This document shows positions 19,031 through 27,757 of a DNA stretch of 64,000 nt, piece by piece. This DNA comes from Pelosinus fermentans DSM 17108 (lineage in GTDB: Bacteria > Bacillota > Negativicutes > DSM-13327). A program made the position numbers and the translations under genes. The stretch lies in contig NZ_AKVN02000001.1 in the NCBI RefSeq assembly GCF_000271485.2, positions 1,492,001 through 1,556,000 on the forward strand. Direction: 5' to 3'. The notes beneath the pieces are model-generated. The model was not told the DNA's origin. It did no database searches and worked only from the letters and a program-made list of their open reading frames with translations. Every line of letters starts with the position of its first letter. Within the stretch, counting starts at the first letter, position 1.

Positions 19031-19975
19031 TTATTGATATAATAAATTGGACAGATAGTCAATGGCTTCATCCACCCGGCTGCCGGGGTTAACAGCAAAC
19101 AGGCAATATGGCAATTGGTAGACCCGATTTTCCTGTACAGCTTTTAACTTTCTCCAGCTAGGGTGAAGTGCCAATTCATTGCGAATTTGGTCGCTGACCT
19201 TAGTATCATAGCTGTGAGTAATGAGCAGGATCAGGTCTGGATTGGTCTGGAGCGCAATATCGAGACTGAGGGGAGCATATCCCAGGGGATTGCCACCGCC
19301 TACGCTCTGGACAACATTCTTTGCATTGAGGCGGCAGAGAAGATCGCCGATAAAACTGTTTGGCAGCGCCATATGAAAACTTTCAGCAGATCCCCAGACA
19401 ACGAGGACTTTTGGAGAGGGTTTATTTTTGCTTTTTGCTTGGACCTGCTGCAATTTGCTGTCCAAACGATGAATCACTTGATATGCTTGCCGCGAATGAT
19501 CTGTCAATTCACCATAAAAGCGCAGGGTTTGGCTAATCTGCTGGTAATTATTCAATCTTTGAAGGTATACTAAAATACCTGCTTTTTCTAATGAGGTGAG
19601 GATTGGCTGACGCAAATGAATATCAGTAGTCAAAACTAAGTCAGGTTTCAAAGCGATAATTTGATCAAGGTTGGGAGTTGGTGTCTCGCCAACAGATGGC
19701 ACATCTTTAATTTTTTCCATCAGATCCGATGACAGAGCCATAGTACTGGGGCGACCGACTAATTCCCCGCCAACGGCATAATATAAATCAACATTAGAAG
19801 CGTTAAGAGCGATAAGCCGCAGCGATCTGCCCTTTCTAATTGTTTGTATTAAACTGCATTTTGGACACTGAATTTCAATATACTTTACCTGTCCTTTGAA
19901 TAGCAGCCTGTTGCATTTCGAACAACGGCATTCATTTGAACCAGTGTTATTTATCATGTTATGATGTAGTTTCAT
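19031..19975 (-). CDS. Com-type zinc ribbon fused to a heme/iron-siderophore binding-protein domain
   Basis: A 314-residue protein without a signal peptide. Residues about 15-47 form a Com-like zinc ribbon: CRCSKCNRLLFKG then IEIQCPKCSLIQTIRKG, i.e. two CxxC knuckles. From about residue 52 (RLIALNASNVDLYYAVGGEL) it becomes a type III periplasmic binding-protein domain, paralogous to the lipoprotein-like one at 20837 (VIVLNASNLELFYAVGGK). It aligns through the ending LFAVNPGSRVDEA, but lacks that paralogue's signal peptide and first ~50 mature residues. It should therefore be cytoplasmic. A nucleic-acid-binding heme or iron sensor is one inference; a non-functional recombinant is the alternative. 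Its leader carries conserved hairpin A. GGAGGAA precedes the ATG. Confidence 0.8.
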   Translation of the reverse strand: MKLHHNMINNTGSNECRCSKCNRLLFKGQVKYIEIQCPKCSLIQTIRKGRSLRLIALNASNVDLYYAVGGELVGRPSTMALSSDLMEKIKDVPSVGETPTPNLDQIIALKPDLVLTTDIHLRQPILTSLEKAGILVYLQRLNNYQQISQTLRFYGELTDHSRQAYQVIHRLDSKLQQVQAKSKNKPSPKVLVVWGSAESFHMALPNSFIGDLLCRLNAKNVVQSVGGGNPLGYAPLSLDIALQTNPDLILLITHSYDTKVSDQIRNELALHPSWRKLKAVQENRVYQLPYCLFAVNPGSRVDEAIDYLSNLLYQ

Positions 19976-20010
19976 GATATTCCTCCATTAGCAGCAATTA
20001 ATATATAAAT

Positions 20011-20059
20011 AAAAAACTCCGTGCGAAATACGATTTCATCACGGAGCTCTGGGCTCTCT
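20011..20059 (-). promoter_or_regulatory. Conserved heme-locus leader element A (AGAGAGCC + hairpin)
   Basis: On the minus strand AGAGAGCC is followed by CA and a hairpin GAGCTCCGTG...CACGGAGTTTTTT with an inner GAAAT/ATTTC stem. It lies in the 5' leader of the Com-fusion gene, which starts 35 bases beyond, and looks like an attenuator-type terminator. Elements B (20653) and C (25647) share the AGAGAGCC word and stem. Confidence 0.7.
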
Positions 20060-20063
20060 TTGC

Positions 20064-20125
20064 TTACATTCATTTTCTATAATGATTATTGTTCTCATTA
20101 TAGAAAATGAATGTAATTTTGTCAA
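20064..20125 (-). promoter_or_regulatory. Promoter of the Com-fusion gene inside a perfect 22-bp inverted repeat
   Basis: The minus strand has TTGACA (20120-20125), 17 bases, TATAAT (20097-20102): a perfect consensus promoter. The -10 and start region lie in a perfect 22-base inverted repeat (20064-20085 against 20095-20116, nine-base loop). Its centre ATAATGA...TAATCATTAT resembles a Fur site. Confidence 0.8.
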
Positions 20126-20189: not shown

Positions 20190-20218
20190 TTGACTTTGAT
20201 AATGATTATCAATATACT
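20190..20218 (+). promoter_or_regulatory. Fur-controlled promoter P1 (com gene)
   Basis: TTGACT, exactly 17 bases, TATACT. The 17-base spacer is itself the perfect palindrome TTGATAATGATTATCAA, a near-ideal Fur box. Divergent to the Com-fusion promoter. Confidence 0.85.
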
Positions 20219-20319
20219 AAATAGTAAAGGTAAATCCTTCCTTCTCCTGCTATAGGGGAAAATGAATGCCGCAACTTACAGAAGTTGATTTTAAGATCGT
20301 ATAATTTGGAGTGATGTAC

Positions 20320-20508
20320 ATGGAGATAAAGGATAAAGACTTGCGATATGCGAAACCAAAGTGGCCGGAAGTACGCTGTGGTCAATGTAATCGCTTATTA
20401 TTTCGTGGAATCGTTGAAGATATGGAGATTAAATGCTCACGATGCGGCACAATTCAGTGTATAGGTGGTTGTAAACAAGAAACCAGAATGAACGTTTGCA
20501 GCAGGTAA
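20320..20508 (+). CDS. Com-like zinc ribbon protein
   Basis: A 62-residue protein with the Com zinc ribbon: VRCGQCNRLLFRG then MEIKCSRCGTIQ (about residues 20-50), two CxxC pairs expected to bind one zinc. The phage Mu founder Com binds a hairpin in mom mRNA and switches on translation; cellular Com-like genes are annotated as DNA-binding regulators without direct proof. GGAG at 20308 is well spaced for the ATG at 20320. Transcribed from Fur-type promoter P1 directly upstream of the heme operon, so a regulator of that operon is a reasonable inference. Confidence 0.8.
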   Translation: MEIKDKDLRYAKPKWPEVRCGQCNRLLFRGIVEDMEIKCSRCGTIQCIGGCKQETRMNVCSR

Positions 20509-20551: not shown

Positions 20552-20580
20552 TTGACTTTGATAATTATTATCAATATACT
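20552..20580 (+). promoter_or_regulatory. Fur-controlled promoter P2 of the heme operon
   Basis: TTGACT, 17-base spacer, TATACT, with the spacer TTGATAATTATTATCAA again a full Fur palindrome. It is a near copy of P1, located after the com gene, and drives a leader of about 250 bases before hmuT. Confidence 0.85.
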
Positions 20581-20652
20581 ATAGAACAATAATAGCATTT
20601 GGTGGTTCTGTACGAAACAACACAATACAAATGGTTAGCAAGATAACCGATT

Positions 20653-20704
20653 AGAGAGCCAAGAGCTCCGTGCCAGTAGTAATACGCACGGAGCTTTCAT
20701 TTAT
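20653..20704 (+). promoter_or_regulatory. Conserved heme-locus leader element B
   Basis: AGAGAGCC, AA, then GAGCTCCGTGC pairing perfectly with GCACGGAGCT, followed by TTTCATTTATTTT. It lies between P2 and hmuT. Past the hairpin, a GAGGTG site precedes a possible eight-codon peptide starting at the GTG near 20758 (MIYNVWHK); its reality is uncertain. Confidence 0.7.
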
Positions 20705-20836
20705 TTTAAAAATAACAGCAGCTGAATTCACAGTTGCTTATTAAATGAGGTGATGCAGTGATTTATAACGTATGGCATAAATAGACCCGGGATAGTAAGA
20801 GCCATGCTCGTGAAAATAAAGAAGTGAGGTGTAAAT

Positions 20837-21802
20837 ATGAATAGAATGACTGGAGGAATAATCGTTTTATTATTGGCTGTCAGTGGTTTTTTCTTGTTTA
20901 GAGGGCAGTCAGAACCGGTGGTAAATCAGTTATCAGCCCGGTATGGTGTAACTGACAGTGCTGGCAGACAGGTGGAAATCCCCCGACAGCCCCAGCGGGT
21001 GATTGTTTTAAATGCTTCGAATCTGGAACTATTTTATGCAGTCGGCGGGAAAGTAGTTGGACGTCCCACTACAGAGGCTTTGCCACAGGCTGTTAAGGAT
21101 GCTGTCCAGCAGGTTCCGACTGTTGGCATTACGCCTAATCCTAATATTGAGCAGATTATAGCGCTGAAGCCTGATTTAATTTTAGGAGTTAACATGCCGT
21201 TTCATCATAATTTGATTCCAGTATTAGATAAAGCGGGAATTCCCATTCTCCTGCAATCCCTTGAAAACTATCAGCAAATTATCGATACACTGCGTTTTTA
21301 TGGTGATCTAACAGGAAAACCGGATCAGGCAGACGCACAAATCAACCAGATTCAGTCACGCTACGAAGAGATAATGAATCATAATAAAGATCGTGTGGCT
21401 CCTACAGTAGTTGTTGTATGGGGATCGCCGGAAAGCTTTAATATGGCAACATCCCGCAGCTTTAGCGGCGATTTGCTGAAACGTCTGGGAGCGGTTAATA
21501 TTGCTGATCAGGGAGATGACGGTGGTGGGCAAATGGGCTATGTACCATTAAGCATGGAATATGTTGCAAAGCAAAATCCGGATATGGTTTTTTTGATTAC
21601 CCATAGTTCTGATGAAAAAATCAATGAGAAGTTTCGCAATGAATTGACTAATCATCCTGCATGGCGGGGGCTAAAGGCCGTCAAATCCAATCAAGTTCAT
21701 CAGTTGCCCTATCGTTTATTTGCTGTAAATCCTGGTACGCAGGTGGGTGAGGCCTTGACTGTTTTAGCTGGGTTTTTATATCCGGAGGTGGCGAAGCAAT
21801 GA
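20837..21802 (+). CDS. hmuT: Heme/iron ABC transporter substrate-binding protein
   Basis: Periplasmic (possibly membrane-anchored) binding protein of the BtuF/FhuD/HmuT class, 321 residues. A hydrophobic N-terminal segment MTGGIIVLLLAVSGFFLF has no lipobox cysteine. The mature part begins with VTDSAGRQVEIP and continues through VIVLNASNLELF, IIALKPDLILG and VVVVWGSPESF to LFAVNPGTQVGEAL. Heme is inferred as ligand because hutW and a flavodoxin lie in the same operon. GTGAGGTG precedes the ATG. It overlaps the permease gene by four bases (ATGA). Confidence 0.88.
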   Translation: MNRMTGGIIVLLLAVSGFFLFRGQSEPVVNQLSARYGVTDSAGRQVEIPRQPQRVIVLNASNLELFYAVGGKVVGRPTTEALPQAVKDAVQQVPTVGITPNPNIEQIIALKPDLILGVNMPFHHNLIPVLDKAGIPILLQSLENYQQIIDTLRFYGDLTGKPDQADAQINQIQSRYEEIMNHNKDRVAPTVVVVWGSPESFNMATSRSFSGDLLKRLGAVNIADQGDDGGGQMGYVPLSMEYVAKQNPDMVFLITHSSDEKINEKFRNELTNHPAWRGLKAVKSNQVHQLPYRLFAVNPGTQVGEALTVLAGFLYPEVAKQ

Positions 21803-22803
21803 GAGAAGTTGCAATCGACCCTCGTGGGACTTGGCGAACGGGGATCAGTATAATCGGACTGGTTGCGCTGGTGGCCGCCTTATTTTGGGGGATCAGAGTG
21901 GGAACTGTACCTTTTAGTGCTTATGATATCTGGAATGTATTTATTGCTCCGGCCAGCAATGAAGCTTATCAAATTATCTATAATATCAGGGTACCCCGGG
22001 TATTGGTTGGTGCGTTAACCGGGATCAATTTAGCTTTGGCCGGCTGCATCCTGCAAGGGGTGCTGCGCAATCCTTTAGCCGACCCTGGAATTATTGGAGT
22101 ATCCGCGGGAGCTGGTCTGGCAGCTATGTCTGTAATGATTTTATGGCCTGGGCTTATGGCATTGGTGCCGGCGGCTGCTTTTGTTGGAGCGCTGCTGGCT
22201 GCTGGAATCGTGTTTTTATTGTCCTGGGATCGGGGGATACAGCCTCTTAGGCTGATCTTAGCCGGTGTGGCCCTGGCTGCCTTCTTTGGCGGCGGCATGA
22301 GTGCTCTTATGGTCTTTCACTCCGATAAAGTGCAGGGGACGGTCAACTGGATGGCTGGGGGATTTCAGGGGCGCAGCTGGAATCATGTGCAGATGATTCT
22401 GCCTTACAGCTTGATCGGAGTTTTAGGGACTATGCTTTCTTACCGTCATTTAAATGCATTGCAGTTAGGTGATGAAGTTGCCAAAGGTTTGGGAATCAGA
22501 GTGGAAAAAGCACGATTTTTCCTGGTTGTTTTGGCAGCCTTGCTGGCAGCTTCGGCAGTCAGCGTGGCAGGTCTCTTAGGCTTTGTTGGACTTATCATCC
22601 CTCATATTGCCCGCATGTTGGTCGGTTCGGATTTTGAGTATCTGATGCCCTGTGCAGCCGTACTGGGAGCTACGATTGTAGTGGCTGCGGATACCGTCGC
22701 CCGTACCATATTCAGTCCGGTGGAAGTACCAGTAGGAATTTTTATGGCTTTTTTAGGAGCTCCGTTCTTTATTTATTTACTGCGAAAGGGGATGCGGCGA
22801 TGA
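21799..22803 (+). CDS. hmuU: Heme/iron ABC transporter permease (FecCD family)
   Basis: A 334-residue polytopic inner-membrane protein with about ten helices. FecCD signatures include IRVPRVLVGALTGINLALAG, QGVLRNPLADPGIIGVSAGA and GFVGLIIPHIARMLVG near the C-terminus (coupling-helix region). It takes heme or chelated iron from HmuT and works with the next gene's ATPase. Overlaps both neighbours by ATGA junctions, so translation is coupled. Confidence 0.93.
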   Translation: MREVAIDPRGTWRTGISIIGLVALVAALFWGIRVGTVPFSAYDIWNVFIAPASNEAYQIIYNIRVPRVLVGALTGINLALAGCILQGVLRNPLADPGIIGVSAGAGLAAMSVMILWPGLMALVPAAAFVGALLAAGIVFLLSWDRGIQPLRLILAGVALAAFFGGGMSALMVFHSDKVQGTVNWMAGGFQGRSWNHVQMILPYSLIGVLGTMLSYRHLNALQLGDEVAKGLGIRVEKARFFLVVLAALLAASAVSVAGLLGFVGLIIPHIARMLVGSDFEYLMPCAAVLGATIVVAADTVARTIFSPVEVPVGIFMAFLGAPFFIYLLRKGMRR

Positions 22804-23606
22804 GTCATACCATTGAAGCCCAGTCTATTAAACTTGGCTATGGCAGCAAGGTAATCATTCCAGAAATGGATATTGTAATCGATAAACCGGAAATCATCTC
22901 AATTATTGGACCAAACGGATCAGGAAAATCCACCTTATTGAAAGCATTAAGCCGAATATTGAGTCCTTTGGCTGGCTGCGTATTGCTGGATGGCAAGGAT
23001 ATTCATCAATTGCAACCGGTACAGGTAGCTAAAATCATGGCGATACTGCCTCAGACAGTACATGCGCCAGGAGACATGACAGTTTATGATCTGGTGGCTT
23101 ATGGTCGTATGCCTTATAAAAAAATGTTTGAAAAATTGGACAGTAATGATCAAGAGTGTATGGCAGCGGTACTGGAAGCCACTGGTATCCGGCAAATGCT
23201 GCACCGGCGGCTGGACAGTTTGTCGGGAGGGGAAAGGCAGCGGGCTTGGCTGGCTATGGCCCTGGCCCAGGAGCCTCGCTTGCTTTTATTAGATGAACCG
23301 ACAACCTATCTGGATATTCATCACCAACTGGAATTAATGAAGCTGGTTCGCAAACTGCATCAGGATATGCAGATTACCGTTATTATGGTTCTGCATGATT
23401 TAAACCATGCAGCTCGCTTTAGCCAGCGTATGATTGCGGTCAAAGACGGTCTGCTATTTGCGGATGGGCCAGTGGAAGAAGTATTTACTGTAGAAAATTT
23501 ACGGGCTTTATACGGAGTCGAAACAACGATTATGACGATTGAGCAAGGAGGGAGTTCGCATCTTGTCTGTTTTCCTCATGACAGCTGCCTGAAGCAGAAG
23601 GCATGA
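22800..23606 (+). CDS. hmuV: Heme/iron ABC transporter ATP-binding protein
   Basis: A 268-residue FepC/HmuV-type ATPase. Walker A is GPNGSGKST near 38, the signature is LSGGERQRAWL near 140, Walker B is LLLLDEPTTYLD near 160, and the H-loop histidine is in MVLHDLNHAARF. It powers the HmuU permease. The C-terminal ~30 residues (after YGVETTI) carry two cysteines in CFPHDSC, slightly unusual for the family. Confidence 0.95.
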   Translation: MSHTIEAQSIKLGYGSKVIIPEMDIVIDKPEIISIIGPNGSGKSTLLKALSRILSPLAGCVLLDGKDIHQLQPVQVAKIMAILPQTVHAPGDMTVYDLVAYGRMPYKKMFEKLDSNDQECMAAVLEATGIRQMLHRRLDSLSGGERQRAWLAMALAQEPRLLLLDEPTTYLDIHHQLELMKLVRKLHQDMQITVIMVLHDLNHAARFSQRMIAVKDGLLFADGPVEEVFTVENLRALYGVETTIMTIEQGGSSHLVCFPHDSCLKQKA

Positions 23607-23678: not shown

Positions 23679-24227
23679 ATGCAAACGTTAGTTGTTTATT
23701 CCAGTCTTACGGGCAATACCAAAAAAGTGGCAGAAGCGATCTATGAAGTTTTTGGTGAAAAGGCCGCCTTGTTTCCAGTTGAAATGGCACCCGCGCCGAC
23801 AGACTATGATTTTGTGATAGTCGGCTTTTGGGTTGATAAAGGAACAGCCGATAAGAAGGCCCAGGAGTATCTCAAGACCATTCAGGATAAACCAGTTGCT
23901 TTATTTGCTACATTAGGGGCCTATCCTGATTCAGAGCATGCTGCCAGCAGTCTCAAAAATGCAGCTGCATTCCTGGATGCCAGCAATCAATTGGTGGGAA
24001 CTTTTATATGCCAGGGGAAAATAGATCCGAAGCTAATTGAACAATTTAAAAACATGCCGGGAAATCATCCTCATGCTGCTACCCCAGAACGGATGGAACG
24101 CTATAAGAAAGCTGCCAGCCATCCTGATGCCAGCGATCTAGAGGCAGCTCAGGCTATTTTTGCAGATATAAAAAATAGCTTGAATCGAGTTGCAGGGCAG
24201 GAAAAAGGTGAGGTGACTGCCTCTTGA
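23679..24227 (+). CDS. Flavodoxin family protein (HmuF-like)
   Basis: A 182-residue flavodoxin with the FMN phosphate loop YSSLTGNTKKVAEAI at residues 7-21 and FVIVGFWVDKGTAD near 48-61. It is immediately upstream of, and overlaps, the HutW-type radical-SAM gene. In Fusobacterium the homologous flavodoxin HmuF supports the heme-degrading enzyme HmuW, so electron supply to HutW is the likely role. Strong GGGAGG ribosome site. Confidence 0.88.
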   Translation: MQTLVVYSSLTGNTKKVAEAIYEVFGEKAALFPVEMAPAPTDYDFVIVGFWVDKGTADKKAQEYLKTIQDKPVALFATLGAYPDSEHAASSLKNAAAFLDASNQLVGTFICQGKIDPKLIEQFKNMPGNHPHAATPERMERYKKAASHPDASDLEAAQAIFADIKNSLNRVAGQEKGEVTAS

Positions 24228-25630
24228 GGGGAAGTAGACTAAAGCAAATTCTGGCAAACATGAGCCCAGAGCAATATGCCTTGACCGTTGGCACAGCAGC
24301 CGAAGAGTCGCTGGTAGAAGCCTTTGTAAAACGCCGGGTCGTTCATGCCGGCGTCAGAGGAAAACCGATCATGCCGGTAGAATGGCAGGCGACATGGCAG
24401 TCTTTACTGGAGCAAAAGCCAGAACCAGAGCAACGTGTAGCATATATCCATATTCCCTTTTGCCGGCATCGTTGTCTATATTGCGGTTTTTTTCAAAACT
24501 ATTCAGCGGCAGAGCTGGAAGCCGTTTATATTGATCATTTAATTAAAGAACTGCAGATGAGCAGAGATAGTCCTTATTTGTCCAGTAGACCGGTTAATGC
24601 CGTATTTATCGGCGGTGGGACTCCCAGTACTCTGGCACCTCAGCAGGTTGCCAGGCTGCTGGATGCTATCCGGGACTGTTTGCCCCTAGCCAATGATTAT
24701 GAATTAACACTAGAAGGGAGGGTTAACGACTTAGTTCCAGATAAAATGGAAGCTTGGCTGGATCATGGGGTAAATCGCGTATCTATCGGTGTTCAGTCCT
24801 TCAATCCAGAAGTACGGCGAGGGGTTGGCCGGCTGGATGATACGCAGACGATTCTTAAGAGGCTGGAACTGCTAACCAGTTATAATCAGGCTGCCGTTAT
24901 TATTGATTTGATTTATGGTCTGCCGAACCAGACTAACCAGGTTTGGGCCAATGATATCAACCTATTGAAAACGGCAGCCATTGATGGAATGGATTTATAT
25001 CAGTTAAACATTTATGAAGACAGTGCCTTGCAGCAGGCCATCAATTCCGGTAAGCTGCCGCCGGCAGCTACAACGGCCCAGCAGGCTCGAATGTTTGCTG
25101 CGGCCGAAGCGGAACTGTCAGCCCATGTATTTTCACGGCTCAGTATTTGCCACTGGAGGAAGACCAATCGCGAGCGAAGTATATACAATACCCTCACGAA
25201 GGCTGGTCACAGTGTAATTCCCTTTGGCGCCGGTGCCGGCGGTAATATTGGCGGTGTGGCTATGTTTTTAAATCGGGATGTCGGTAACTATATTAAAAGT
25301 ATTGAGCAAGGTCATAAACCAGTTGCTGGCATGCTGCTGCAGCCAGCCGACAGTGGTTTGCACAATATGGTTATTGGACAACTCGAGCGCGGCTATTTAC
25401 AACTTAGTGCCTTAGCAGCCTGCTATGGACCTGCTGTTTTGGAATTAGAATCATTACTGGAGATTTGGCAAGGGCGTGGGCTTCTTGAATTTGGTCCATC
25501 AGTAGCTCGACTGACGGTAGCTGGTCAGTTTTGGTATATGAATATCGCCCAGTCAGTATTAGAATGCTTGCATGCTCTGCTAGATGGTGAACATTCGGTG
25601 GAAGTGCAGCCTATAGCGGCCCAAGGCTAG
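24224..25630 (+). CDS. hutW: HutW/ChuW-type radical SAM heme-degradation enzyme
   Basis: A 468-residue radical SAM protein of the anaerobic heme-utilisation branch (ChuW/HutW/HmuW), which opens the porphyrin without O2 by a SAM-dependent methyl transfer and frees iron. The cluster motif CRHRCLYC is near residues 84-91 and is preceded by VAYIHIPF. GGGTPSTL and SIGVQSF are typical of the HemN-like core. The start is TTG overlapping the flavodoxin stop (TTGA), with AGGTGAGGTG upstream; the next Met (MSPEQYAL) is possible. The neighbours (heme ABC, flavodoxin, receptor) support the call. Confidence 0.9.
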   Translation: MRGSRLKQILANMSPEQYALTVGTAAEESLVEAFVKRRVVHAGVRGKPIMPVEWQATWQSLLEQKPEPEQRVAYIHIPFCRHRCLYCGFFQNYSAAELEAVYIDHLIKELQMSRDSPYLSSRPVNAVFIGGGTPSTLAPQQVARLLDAIRDCLPLANDYELTLEGRVNDLVPDKMEAWLDHGVNRVSIGVQSFNPEVRRGVGRLDDTQTILKRLELLTSYNQAAVIIDLIYGLPNQTNQVWANDINLLKTAAIDGMDLYQLNIYEDSALQQAINSGKLPPAATTAQQARMFAAAEAELSAHVFSRLSICHWRKTNRERSIYNTLTKAGHSVIPFGAGAGGNIGGVAMFLNRDVGNYIKSIEQGHKPVAGMLLQPADSGLHNMVIGQLERGYLQLSALAACYGPAVLELESLLEIWQGRGLLEFGPSVARLTVAGQFWYMNIAQSVLECLHALLDGEHSVEVQPIAAQG

Positions 25631-25646
25631 TTGCCGGGTCCTTTTT

Positions 25647-25700
25647 AGAGAGCCTGTGAGCTCCATGACGGTTTATTACCGCATGGAGCTTTGCTATTTT
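25647..25700 (+). promoter_or_regulatory. Conserved heme-locus element C between hutW and the heme receptor
   Basis: AGAGAGCC, TGT, then AGCTCCATG pairing with CATGGAGCT around an inner CGGT/ACCG stem, followed by TTGCTATTTT. Relative to A and B, the G-C pair in the stem is changed to A-T on both sides, preserving pairing. It could set readthrough from hutW into the receptor gene; no separate promoter is obvious. Confidence 0.7.
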
Positions 25701-25813
25701 CTGTTACCAATAACTTAAGTTAATGAAAGGAGTCGATTATGAACTCAAGTTAGCTCATAGATAAAGTGATAAAGTTGTCGATTTTACTACAATATAAGAA
25801 AGGAAGATAGTAT

Positions 25814-27757
25814 ATGAAAATGAGACAAAATCGGAGAAAAGGCAAAGTGGCGTTATTAAGTTTCGGTATTATGGCGGTATTGAGTCTGCCGGCTTACGCT
25901 GAGGAGGAACCTTACCAGTTTAGTGAGGTAGTGGTTACTGCCACCCGGACCAAGCAGAATGTGAAGGATATACCAGCCAGTGTTGAGGTCATTACCCGGC
26001 AGGATATCGAAACCATGGGTGCTGACAGTGTAGTAGCGGCATTGAAGCTGGCCATGAACTTAAATCTTTCTGAAGCGGGAATGACAGGTAATCAGGTTAG
26101 TTTGCGTGGTATGAACACGAACCAGTCCCTAATTTTGATTGATGGTCGACGTATGGCAGGGGAAGATACGGGATCAACCATGAATTATTACGAATTAAAC
26201 CGGATTAATATTAATAATGTGGAACGGATCGAAATCGTACGGGGACCCGTTAGTTCTCTTTATGGATCAGATGCTTTGGGCGGCGTCATCAATATTATTA
26301 TGCGTAAATCGGAAAAGCCACAGACTACCGTGGGTTTGTCGAACAGCAGCAAGCAACAGAACGCTTCCTTCCGCTTTGACTTAGGTAAAGAAGGGAAATG
26401 GTCATGGGTAGTTGATACACTTTTTACTGAGATTAAAGAGAGGACACGAACAGATAGTACGAATATGTATGGACCGCGCCAGTTCTATAATATCAGTGGA
26501 ACATACGATATGTCGGAAGGTAAGAACCTGGATGTCTTTTATGAAAGAATGAGTGAACATTTGAAATCAGGATTTACTGATGGCAGCAGAGATTATTATA
26601 CCAATACGAGAAATTCCTACGGTATCAATTATCGTGGTATCAATTCACGAGGGAATTATGAACTGCGGACTTATTTTAATCAGCTGGAAAAAAATAATGA
26701 TACATTGCTTGAAGGTGGAACCTATAGTGATTTTGACAGAGCAAAGTATAAAACCTGGGTAGTTGATGGGAAAAATACGGTGAAATTGGATGATGAACAT
26801 GTACTGACATTTGGTGGTGAATACCGGTCATCTGAATATCGTGGGACCCGGCTGGAAGACAATGGTGATCATGCTTCTACGATTATTGAGCATGGAATAA
26901 GCAAACCCATATCAGAAAAAGAAATAAAATATCAGGCTGCCTATGTACAAGATGAATGGACTGTTAATAACAAACTGTTAATTATTCCATCCCTGCGGTA
27001 TGATAACAGTAATAAATTTGGCGATGATTTTAGTCCTAAAATTGGTATGACTTACAAAATGGATAATAATTATCGTTTTAAGGCGAATTTTGGGAAAGGG
27101 TTTAAAGCACCCAGTGTCAGTGAGTTATATATGCAAATGACTCATCGCCCGATACCCAACATGACTGTTATTGTTGCTGGTAATCCAGATTTAAAACCGG
27201 AAAAATCGACTAATTATGATATAAGCTTCGAAGGAGAAAGAGGAAGTGATTTTGGAAAAGTAACCTACTTTTATAACGATGTTACCGACCTGATTGGAAC
27301 AAACGACACAATGAGTTATATTCCTGGGACTGGGATGGTTTATAATTCCAAATACATCAATATTGATAAAGCTAAGATAAGAGGCATTGAACTTGAAGCT
27401 GGAAGGCATCTGAATGATAAATTTACGCTGAAATCTGCTTATAATTATCTGGACGCTGAAAATTCCAAAACCCATGAACGCCTGAGCAGCAGGGCAAAAA
27501 ACAGGTATTCCCTGCAGCTGCATTATGATGATATTCAAGATACGGGAATCAGTGGTATTCTATGGCATGAATGGGTGCGTGATTACCGCTATGTTGAGAC
27601 TGATTACAACTATAATACGTTAAACTTTGTGATCAACAAAAAATGGAATGATAAATATGACTCCTATTTTGGTATTGATAATATTCTCGATAAAAAAATC
27701 GATGCACTGATCCTCGAAGGCCGTTTGTGGAGATTTGGCATGAATATAACAATATGA
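25814..27757 (+). CDS. TonB-dependent receptor, probable heme receptor
   Basis: A 647-residue outer-membrane receptor with signal peptide (cleavage after LPAYA). The TonB-box region is FSEVVVTATRTKQN, followed by the plug domain (about 35-155, with RIEIVRGPVSSLYGSDALGG), a 22-strand barrel, and a typical C-terminal aromatic ending. FKAP (about 435) and NPDL (about 459) blocks are present with a histidine between them (MTHRP), as in HemR-type heme receptors. This is suggestive only, since other receptors share them. Operon position after hutW supports heme. Its last codons overlap the ChaN-like gene. Confidence 0.85.
   Translation: MKMRQNRRKGKVALLSFGIMAVLSLPAYAEEEPYQFSEVVVTATRTKQNVKDIPASVEVITRQDIETMGADSVVAALKLAMNLNLSEAGMTGNQVSLRGMNTNQSLILIDGRRMAGEDTGSTMNYYELNRININNVERIEIVRGPVSSLYGSDALGGVINIIMRKSEKPQTTVGLSNSSKQQNASFRFDLGKEGKWSWVVDTLFTEIKERTRTDSTNMYGPRQFYNISGTYDMSEGKNLDVFYERMSEHLKSGFTDGSRDYYTNTRNSYGINYRGINSRGNYELRTYFNQLEKNNDTLLEGGTYSDFDRAKYKTWVVDGKNTVKLDDEHVLTFGGEYRSSEYRGTRLEDNGDHASTIIEHGISKPISEKEIKYQAAYVQDEWTVNNKLLIIPSLRYDNSNKFGDDFSPKIGMTYKMDNNYRFKANFGKGFKAPSVSELYMQMTHRPIPNMTVIVAGNPDLKPEKSTNYDISFEGERGSDFGKVTYFYNDVTDLIGTNDTMSYIPGTGMVYNSKYINIDKAKIRGIELEAGRHLNDKFTLKSAYNYLDAENSKTHERLSSRAKNRYSLQLHYDDIQDTGISGILWHEWVRDYRYVETDYNYNTLNFVINKKWNDKYDSYFGIDNILDKKIDALILEGRLWRFGMNITI

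Follow-up and report, generated by a model that had tools for sequence, protein, structure and literature searches.

A Com-type zinc ribbon fused to a heme-type binding-protein domain is a probable ligand-sensing, RNA-binding antiterminator of heme uptake in Negativicutes

Several described systems resemble the gene studied here in part. Btr/YbbB of Bacillus subtilis is an AraC regulator with a FeuA-like sensor domain, and LicT/SacY and HutP are protein-dependent antiterminators. EutV/ANTAR also belongs to the latter group (PMC3369931). The Com protein of bacteriophage Mu acts on translation (PMC6483171). Nowacka et al. (2019) used the zinc finger of a Mu-like Com from Haemophilus sputorum to select RNAs and obtained the SELEX consensus NGAGNNCC(N)2-3GAGNNCCNN; they propose that the recognized motif is 5'-CC(N)2-3GAG-3' in a hairpin loop with a C-G closing pair (PMC6483171). 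The same protein bound duplex RNA more weakly, while an earlier study cited there had the opposite hairpin/duplex result (PMC6483171).

Here we analyzed a gene in which a ribbon of this type is part of a larger protein. It is located in the window, by which we mean the whole 64,000-nt stretch of DNA that was examined (Table 1). The initial annotation had described an in-frame fusion of a two-CxxC zinc ribbon to a type III binding-protein domain, the lack of a signal peptide, and halves that resemble the adjacent com and hmuT genes; the data agree with all three statements. The protein matches Zn_ribbon_Com (PF10122) with 24.3 bits, compared with a Pfam cut-off of 22.9, and Peripla_BP_2 (PF01497) with an E value of 3e-29. 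It agrees with com at 56% over 32 aa and with hmuT at 52% over 262 aa. The ATG start is backed by a Shine-Dalgarno sequence, GGAGGAATATC; just four further in-frame codons lie upstream of it (open frame, 318). The best 15-residue hydropathy window within the first 45 residues is 0.30 in the fusion as opposed to 2.75 in HmuT and 2.36-3.15 in the 21 HmuT-type proteins that were compared. None of the 20 fusions described below has a strongly hydrophobic N-terminus (best windows 0.16-1.44), and for this reason the fusion was not filed as a transporter component. An alignment of the ribbons shows that C18, C21, C37 and C40 are invariant in all 20. The fusion in the window lacks the strand with which the binding-protein domain begins (TDSAGRQVEIP in HmuT), which the second fusion lineage has.

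Table 1. Coordinates of the fusion gene, its neighbors and the predicted control elements. Positions refer to the window, except for the last four rows, which refer to loci outside the class Negativicutes.
Feature	Position	Strand	Basis
Com-PBP fusion gene, 314 aa (zinc ribbon + type III binding-protein domain)	19031..19975	-	Pfam, conserved family, dN/dS
Com zinc ribbon of fusion, residues 15-47	19835..19933	-	PF10122 above cut-off, alignment
IsdE/HmuT-like binding-protein domain, residues 55-289	19109..19813	-	PF01497; PDB by sequence and fold; pocket residues
Leader A, 5' UTR of fusion; predicted Com site AGAGAGCC-CA-GAGCTCC overlapping intrinsic terminator	20003..20061	-	R1 68.0 bits
Perfect 22-nt inverted repeat, 9-nt spacer, Fur-box-like, overlapping fusion promoter	20064-20116	-	
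Predicted promoter TTGACA-17-TATAAT, sigma-70-type, before leader A	20097-20125	-	12/12
Promoter-like site with Fur-box-like GATAATGATTATCAATAT, 5' of com	20190..20218	+	
Stand-alone com, 65 aa (ATG at 20320)	20311..20508	+	PF10122 38.4 bits
Promoter-like site with Fur-box-like repeat, 5' of leader B	20552..20580	+	
Leader B, 5' of hmuT	20651..20707	+	R1 63.5 bits
hmuT, heme-type substrate-binding protein, hydrophobic N-terminus	20837..21802	+	Profiles, hydropathy
hmuU, FecCD permease	21799..22803	+	Pfam
hmuV, ABC ATPase	22800..23606	+	Pfam
Flavodoxin (Flavodoxin_3; possible HmuF/FldH-type anaerobilin reductase)	23679..24227	+	Profiles; function by analogy with PMC10404700
hutW/chuW-type radical SAM enzyme, anaerobic heme degradation	24224..25630	+	TIGR04107 502.8 bits, cut-off 400
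Leader C, 5' of TonB-dependent receptor, spacer TGT	25645..25702	+	R1 55.3 bits
TonB-dependent receptor; best NCBIfam match is a heme/hemoglobin receptor family, below its cut-off	25814..27757	+	
Out-of-class leader, GAGAGCC-N2/3-GAGCCCC + terminator	L140 4127-4179 (G477)		
Out-of-class leader, same pattern	L139 4638-4693 (G564)		
Out-of-class leader, same pattern	L138 4268-4316 (G564)		
Out-of-class leader, same pattern	L141 226-274 (G439)		

Judged by its gene content, the locus serves heme uptake and the anaerobic degradation of heme. The inverted repeat in front of the fusion gene, which resembles the Fur-box consensus, is likely a Fur-like operator of this gene. The promoter-overlapping repeats before leader A, com and leader B suggest that Fur controls initiation and Com controls elongation.

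In order to see how widespread the architecture is, PF10122 was searched in 380 Negativicutes genomes. It was present at E<=0.001 in 27 of them, in 25 of these above the cut-off, and a reading of the loci revealed 20 fusions of Com with a binding protein in 15 genomes from 8 genera and 7 families. The recurrence of the same architecture in 15 of the 380 genomes indicates that the fusion is not a product of chance. The fusion of P. fermentans JBW45 is 97% identical; a search for related loci returned four true relatives and two remote ones. A fusion profile was also run against 398 genomes of the phylum, 14 of them from the class, and among the matches listed there was no fusion outside Negativicutes. 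The one listed match that starts inside the ribbon region was rejected; it is an ordinary exported binding protein.

In a tree of the binding domains (one row of which was left untrimmed) the fusions form two clades, one of 9 rows with a support of 97/92 and the other of 11 rows with 100/100; the well-supported branches force at least two changes. Of the nine type 1 fusions, eight are divergent from an adjoining stand-alone com. Type 2 fusions are followed by hmuU and hmuV in four of five cases, and each of these four loci has, further along, another hmuT that is preceded by a leader of its own. The six type 3 fusions lie upstream of flavodoxin and hutW genes, once with exbB and exbD in between. 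Com is found immediately 5' of hmuT in several genomes. Because of the two separate clades and this direct adjacency, a fusion of neighboring genes, which probably occurred more than once, explains the origin better than the duplication and fusion of com and hmuT that the initial annotation had suggested.

The fusion is under strong purifying selection. Among Pelosinus sequences (three pairs each), the ribbon has a dN/dS of 0.021-0.074, the binding domain one of 0.052-0.072 and hmuT one of 0.086-0.099. It had been considered that the gene is a non-functional recombinant of com and hmuT, and both source genes do lie within 2 kb. This explanation can be discarded as having a negligible probability in view of 20 fusions in two lineages, purifying selection with dN/dS of 0.02-0.07, and a promoter-like site and a leader of the gene's own. 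In Fusobacterium, flavodoxins traffic heme to HmuW (PMC10404700), and by analogy the HmuF/HmuW pair probably shows what the genes next to the fusion do (PMC10404700). This trafficking, together with the position of type 3 fusions before flavodoxin and hutW genes, would also be compatible with a fusion protein that acts in the cytoplasm to chaperone heme or traffic it to HutW, with the zinc ribbon in a structural role. We regard such a function as very improbable, since the ribbon belongs to an RNA-binding family and is constrained about as strongly as the rest of the protein, and since the fusion gene itself has a Com-type leader.

The structure of the fusion was modeled, as the initial annotation had proposed, with a mean pLDDT of 87 (about 68-75 in the zinc ribbon). 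Sequence searches of the PDB, Foldseek and fold alignment all identify heme-bound IsdE and Lmo2184 as the best solved relatives. The model aligns with Listeria Lmo2184 over 257 residues (Z 29.8, rmsd 2.0) and with the IsdE-heme complex of S. aureus over 255 residues (Z 29.6, rmsd 2.0); a profile search by sequence found IsdE (2q8p) with an E value of 3e-38. A search of the PDB with com alone gave weak, chance-like matches and nothing better. The heme ligands of IsdE are His229 and Met78. H254 of the fusion aligns with the former and is kept in all 20 fusions and in 17 of 19 HmuT proteins, while the position of Met78 is not retained in the profile. A second histidine, in another loop, occupies position 122 in 18 of 19 HmuT proteins and in 10 of 11 type 2/3 fusions; in type 1 fusions it is at position 120 (8 of 9). 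Hence key pocket residues are kept but are not identical, and heme appears to be the likeliest ligand, with a heme-derived product as a possible one. The ligand of the fusion may differ from that of HmuT, because the binding domain does not reach the NCBI cut-off for IsdE equivalogs (149.5 of 298.65 bits) and because the type 1 histidine is shifted (H120 instead of H122).

The initial annotation had missed candidate RNA targets of the protein, namely leader attenuators that match the published SELEX motif of Com. These leaders consist of AGAGAGCC, 2-3 bases, GAGCTCC, a variable loop, a 3' arm of the CACGGAG type and a T-rich sequence; the latter elements constitute an intrinsic terminator. A covariance model, R1, was built from an alignment of 38 leaders; the window contains three, leaders A, B and C. 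A simpler search with the pattern AGAGCCNAGAGCTCCG and two mismatches was abandoned. It matched leaders A and B along with three sites that are unrelated, and the 3-nt spacer of leader C prevented a match there. Rfam has no described family for the leader at the fusion locus, where a single miRNA match was far below the gathering score, and gave zero matches in eight related loci. We found no description of the leader or of a Com-binding-protein fusion in the literature searched, which included few subscription papers and no bioRxiv preprints.

A leader is located directly 5' of 19 of the 20 fusions. The exception is the deepest type 1 fusion (L057, 5062-6042(-), in genome G079), which has no leader within the 12 kb examined; its targets may be leaders in other parts of the genome. 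Among 56 leaders examined, 54 are followed on the same strand by a fusion (19), a TonB receptor (11), hmuT (10, in one of which a tonB-like ORF comes first), com (6), tonB (4) or exbB (4). The other two are L106 and a leader at a contig end (L043:444), where the next ORF is tonB-like at its start alone. Not all targets are close to the Com genes that were found; distant ones include receptors in G304 and G077, which suggests action in trans. In one locus (L103, G304:C1:4364000-4371500) the gene 3' of the leader is a single open frame of 1620 aa with two TonB-receptor-like matches, apparently a tandem receptor.

The leaders read N-GAG-AG-CC-(N)2/3-GAG-CT-CC-NN, and the SELEX pattern is matched exactly by 33 of 38 leaders compared with 4 of 76,000 shuffled sequences. 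The pattern is broken in the other five, in two of them solely by a longer spacer. Five leaders from outside the class also fit the consensus by eye. By comparison with the published site, recognition of RNA by the fusion appears well supported. The 5.03-Mb genome contains nine matches to the pattern, of which five are in one tandem repeat and three are leaders A, B and C; a reversed control gave eight matches, so that the pattern is not enriched genome-wide and this argument was dropped. The 3' arm of leader A (CACGGAG, window positions 20017-20023(-)) also ends the Com-target region of Mu mom as given in PMC6483171, possibly by chance.

The spacer of the site also varies with the type of fusion. 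It is AG or GG in four of five distinct leaders of type 3 fusions (TG in the fifth) and in none of 13 leaders of type 1/2 fusions, one of which was read by eye. In the alignment the type 3 ribbons have N/H-S-M or N-S-L at a place where the other fusions have N-R-L. From these small and kin-linked numbers, the circuits of the two types may be kept apart in genomes that have both.

Next we considered the predicted structure of the leaders. In 37 of 38 leaders the Com-type hairpin, in which GAGC pairs with GCUC, is exactly the fold predicted for the 5' portion, with an energy of about -2.5 to -6.4 kcal/mol. The full free leader folds with the terminator at -12 to -29 kcal/mol, which is far more stable than the Com hairpin. 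On an alignment that was not fitted to this hairpin, 236 of 236 cells are paired, with compensatory changes at two of the four pairs (one leader has AU in place of GC, and two have UA in place of CG). The terminator, to whose structure the alignment A2 is fitted, has 94.2% of 535 cells paired and 21 two-sided changes, values neither of which was reached in 500 shuffles; three terminator pairs have a two-sided change, a number reached in 298 of the 500. Columns 18-21 of A2 are common to the Com hairpin and the terminator helix. On this sequence evidence the two structures are mutually exclusive because both use the GCUC bases. As termination is favored in the unbound RNA, binding of a Com domain would make it an antiterminator.

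Zinc ribbons can also bind DNA, and some Com proteins are named DNA-binding by NCBI. The fusion could then be a DNA-binding transcription regulator with the leader motif as its operator. This is most improbable: the predicted promoters precede leaders A and B, the aligned leaders combine the motif with a terminator, and the motif shows compensatory changes, which matter in RNA alone. An unlikely but more substantial alternative keeps the same RNA target and assumes another output, in which the protein stabilizes termination or controls translation or mRNA stability, and heme releases it (feedback repression). The action of Mu Com on translation (PMC6483171) fits with such an output, and the leader before the fusion gene itself is compatible with negative feedback. 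It is, however, at odds with the T-rich tracts after the leaders, with the exclusion of the terminator by the Com hairpin, and with the long distance between some leaders and the start codon, which is 130 nt in the case of hmuT and 112 nt in that of the receptor.

We then compared the distribution of leaders and Com. With a threshold of E<=1e-6, which was picked after the list was seen, strong full-length matches to R1 occur in 21 of 27 Com-positive and in 0 of 353 Com-negative genomes. Among the 111 of 380 genomes with a HutW relative (called at E<=1e-60), the strong leader is present in 21 of the 23 that are Com-positive and in none of the 88 that are Com-negative, for which a Fisher test that ignores kinship gives p of about 1e-20; these Com-negative genomes are mostly from other families. 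The two Com-positive hutW genomes lacking a strong leader have a diverged form, AGAGAGTC-N2/3-GAACTCC, about 0.1-0.15 kb upstream of exbB and with no clear terminator. None of the four Com-positive genomes that lack hutW has a strong leader. Three leader-less genomes of the same genus (G074-G076) provide no independent contrast, since hutW is absent there too. In six leader-bearing genomes (one of them 85% complete) the fusion is the sole PF10122 match, so the fusion alone would have to serve there.

The association inside the class is partly built in, because the leaders used to train R1 came from Com-positive loci. Genomes that did not contribute to the training give the fairest tests, namely four class genomes with a leader (one a near copy), all of which are Com-positive, and the draw from outside the class. 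At E<=1e-5 one Com-negative genome joins with a partial match to the terminator alone; at E<=0.01 there are matches in 121 of 380 genomes, and most of the weak matches listed span just positions 14-57. Weak leaders can be missed, because the scan used strict filters and the best 14 candidates per genome. Com and the leader share one locus, and both could be inherited jointly.

The draw from outside the class consisted of 398 genomes of the phylum, 384 of them not Negativicutes. Strong leaders were found in 4 of the 384. Com is above the cut-off in three of these four and a weak match in the fourth, compared with a base rate of 3 in 53 (own genome included). A stand-alone Com lies within about 0.4 kb of the leader in L139 and L140, and about 5.5-6 kb away in G564 C24 and in G439; weaker second leader matches flank com in L139 and L140. 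Among the neighbors are a thiolase and a sigma-54 regulator; others are, by eye, CBS-like or acyl-CoA dehydrogenase-like. The pair of Com and leader may therefore be a general regulatory module. In L137 (4004-4063, G714:C19) a strong leader with an E value of 8e-11 is situated just 5' of a gene that by eye resembles a mobile-element integrase; a weak Com-like match is about 3.7 kb away.

These results also bear on the view that the leader is a stand-alone riboswitch or a plain attenuator, and Com a mere genomic neighbor. This view is favored by the terminator itself, which is conserved and covaries partly. The leader nevertheless matches an independently selected Com motif, its strong form is confined to Com-positive genomes among the 380 searched, it recurs with Com outside heme loci, and it has zero Rfam family matches; we therefore consider this view highly improbable.

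The initial annotation had read the protein as a cytoplasmic heme- or iron-responsive regulator that binds nucleic acid, a reading to be given up if the fusion occurred in no other genome, evolved under relaxed selection or lacked the ligand pocket. The same domain order was found in 15 genomes and two lineages, selection is purifying and the pocket histidines are kept, so that this remains the best reading. We propose that the fusion is, with good probability, a ligand-sensing, RNA-binding antiterminator of heme uptake. The Com ribbon would recognize a short hairpin (GAGC-loop-GCUC, with C-N2/3-GA in the loop) in the 5' leaders of the fusion's own mRNA and of the hmuT, TonB-receptor and related mRNAs. 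The 3' half of this hairpin is the 5' arm of the intrinsic terminator, and formation of the hairpin in the bound state would prevent termination. The IsdE-like domain, having lost its export signal, would act in the cytoplasm, where binding of heme or of an iron chelate derived from it would set RNA binding. Fur-like control of the promoter and control at the leader would together make an AND gate that responds when iron is short and heme is present. The sequences establish that the fusion exists and is conserved, that the leaders exist and match the published Com motif, and that the two RNA structures exclude each other. From this we infer that the RNA is bound, that heme is the ligand, that the outcome is antitermination and not termination, and that the protein is active when its ligand is bound.

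A broader proposal, for and against which we see about equal reason, is that the phage-type zinc ribbon is a general cellular antitermination module with a dedicated leader class, in heme loci of Negativicutes and in acyl-CoA-metabolism loci elsewhere in the phylum, and that it was joined at least twice to a transporter binding domain as a cytoplasmic heme sensor, which would make it the first heme-responsive RNA-binding antiterminator derived from a periplasmic binding protein. If the proposed mechanism is true, Com proteins gain a cellular role outside of phages and their RNA target is named, a new class of leader RNA is defined, and a substrate-binding domain of a transporter is reused as a sensor that works on RNA. 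One protein, a single 60-nt RNA and hemin would then be enough for a direct test of how anaerobic heme uptake is regulated in Negativicutes. The fusion and the position of its predicted RNA target before heme-uptake genes suggest a new way for bacteria to switch on such genes.

The known systems each share a part of this arrangement. Mu Com, which activates translation of mom mRNA, shares the PF10122 ribbon with the fusion, whose predicted target has the same bipartite GAGNNCC...GAGNNCC element with the CC(N)2-3GAG hairpin (PMC6483171). In contrast, the ribbon described here is fused to a ligand-binding domain and located in heme-uptake loci with heme uptake as the predicted regulon, and the target hairpin overlaps a transcription terminator and not a translation-inhibition stem. 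The fusion resembles IsdE and HmuT in the fold of its binding domain and in the histidine at the position of His229, but it has no signal peptide or lipobox and carries a putative RNA-binding zinc ribbon; in most loci read, a separate hmuT is present beside the fusion or further along its operon. LicT/SacY, HutP and EutV/ANTAR (PMC3369931) are, as predicted for the fusion, trans-acting proteins on a leader hairpin that excludes a terminator. The similarity to Btr/YbbB would be in the cytoplasmic type III binding-protein domain as a sensor of the substrate of the transporter that it controls; the output of Btr/YbbB is a DNA-binding AraC domain at promoters, whereas that of the fusion would be an RNA-binding zinc ribbon on leaders. 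To our knowledge, the protein folds and RNA motifs of LicT/SacY, HutP and EutV/ANTAR are unrelated to those described here, and these antiterminators have neither a zinc ribbon nor a binding-protein sensor.
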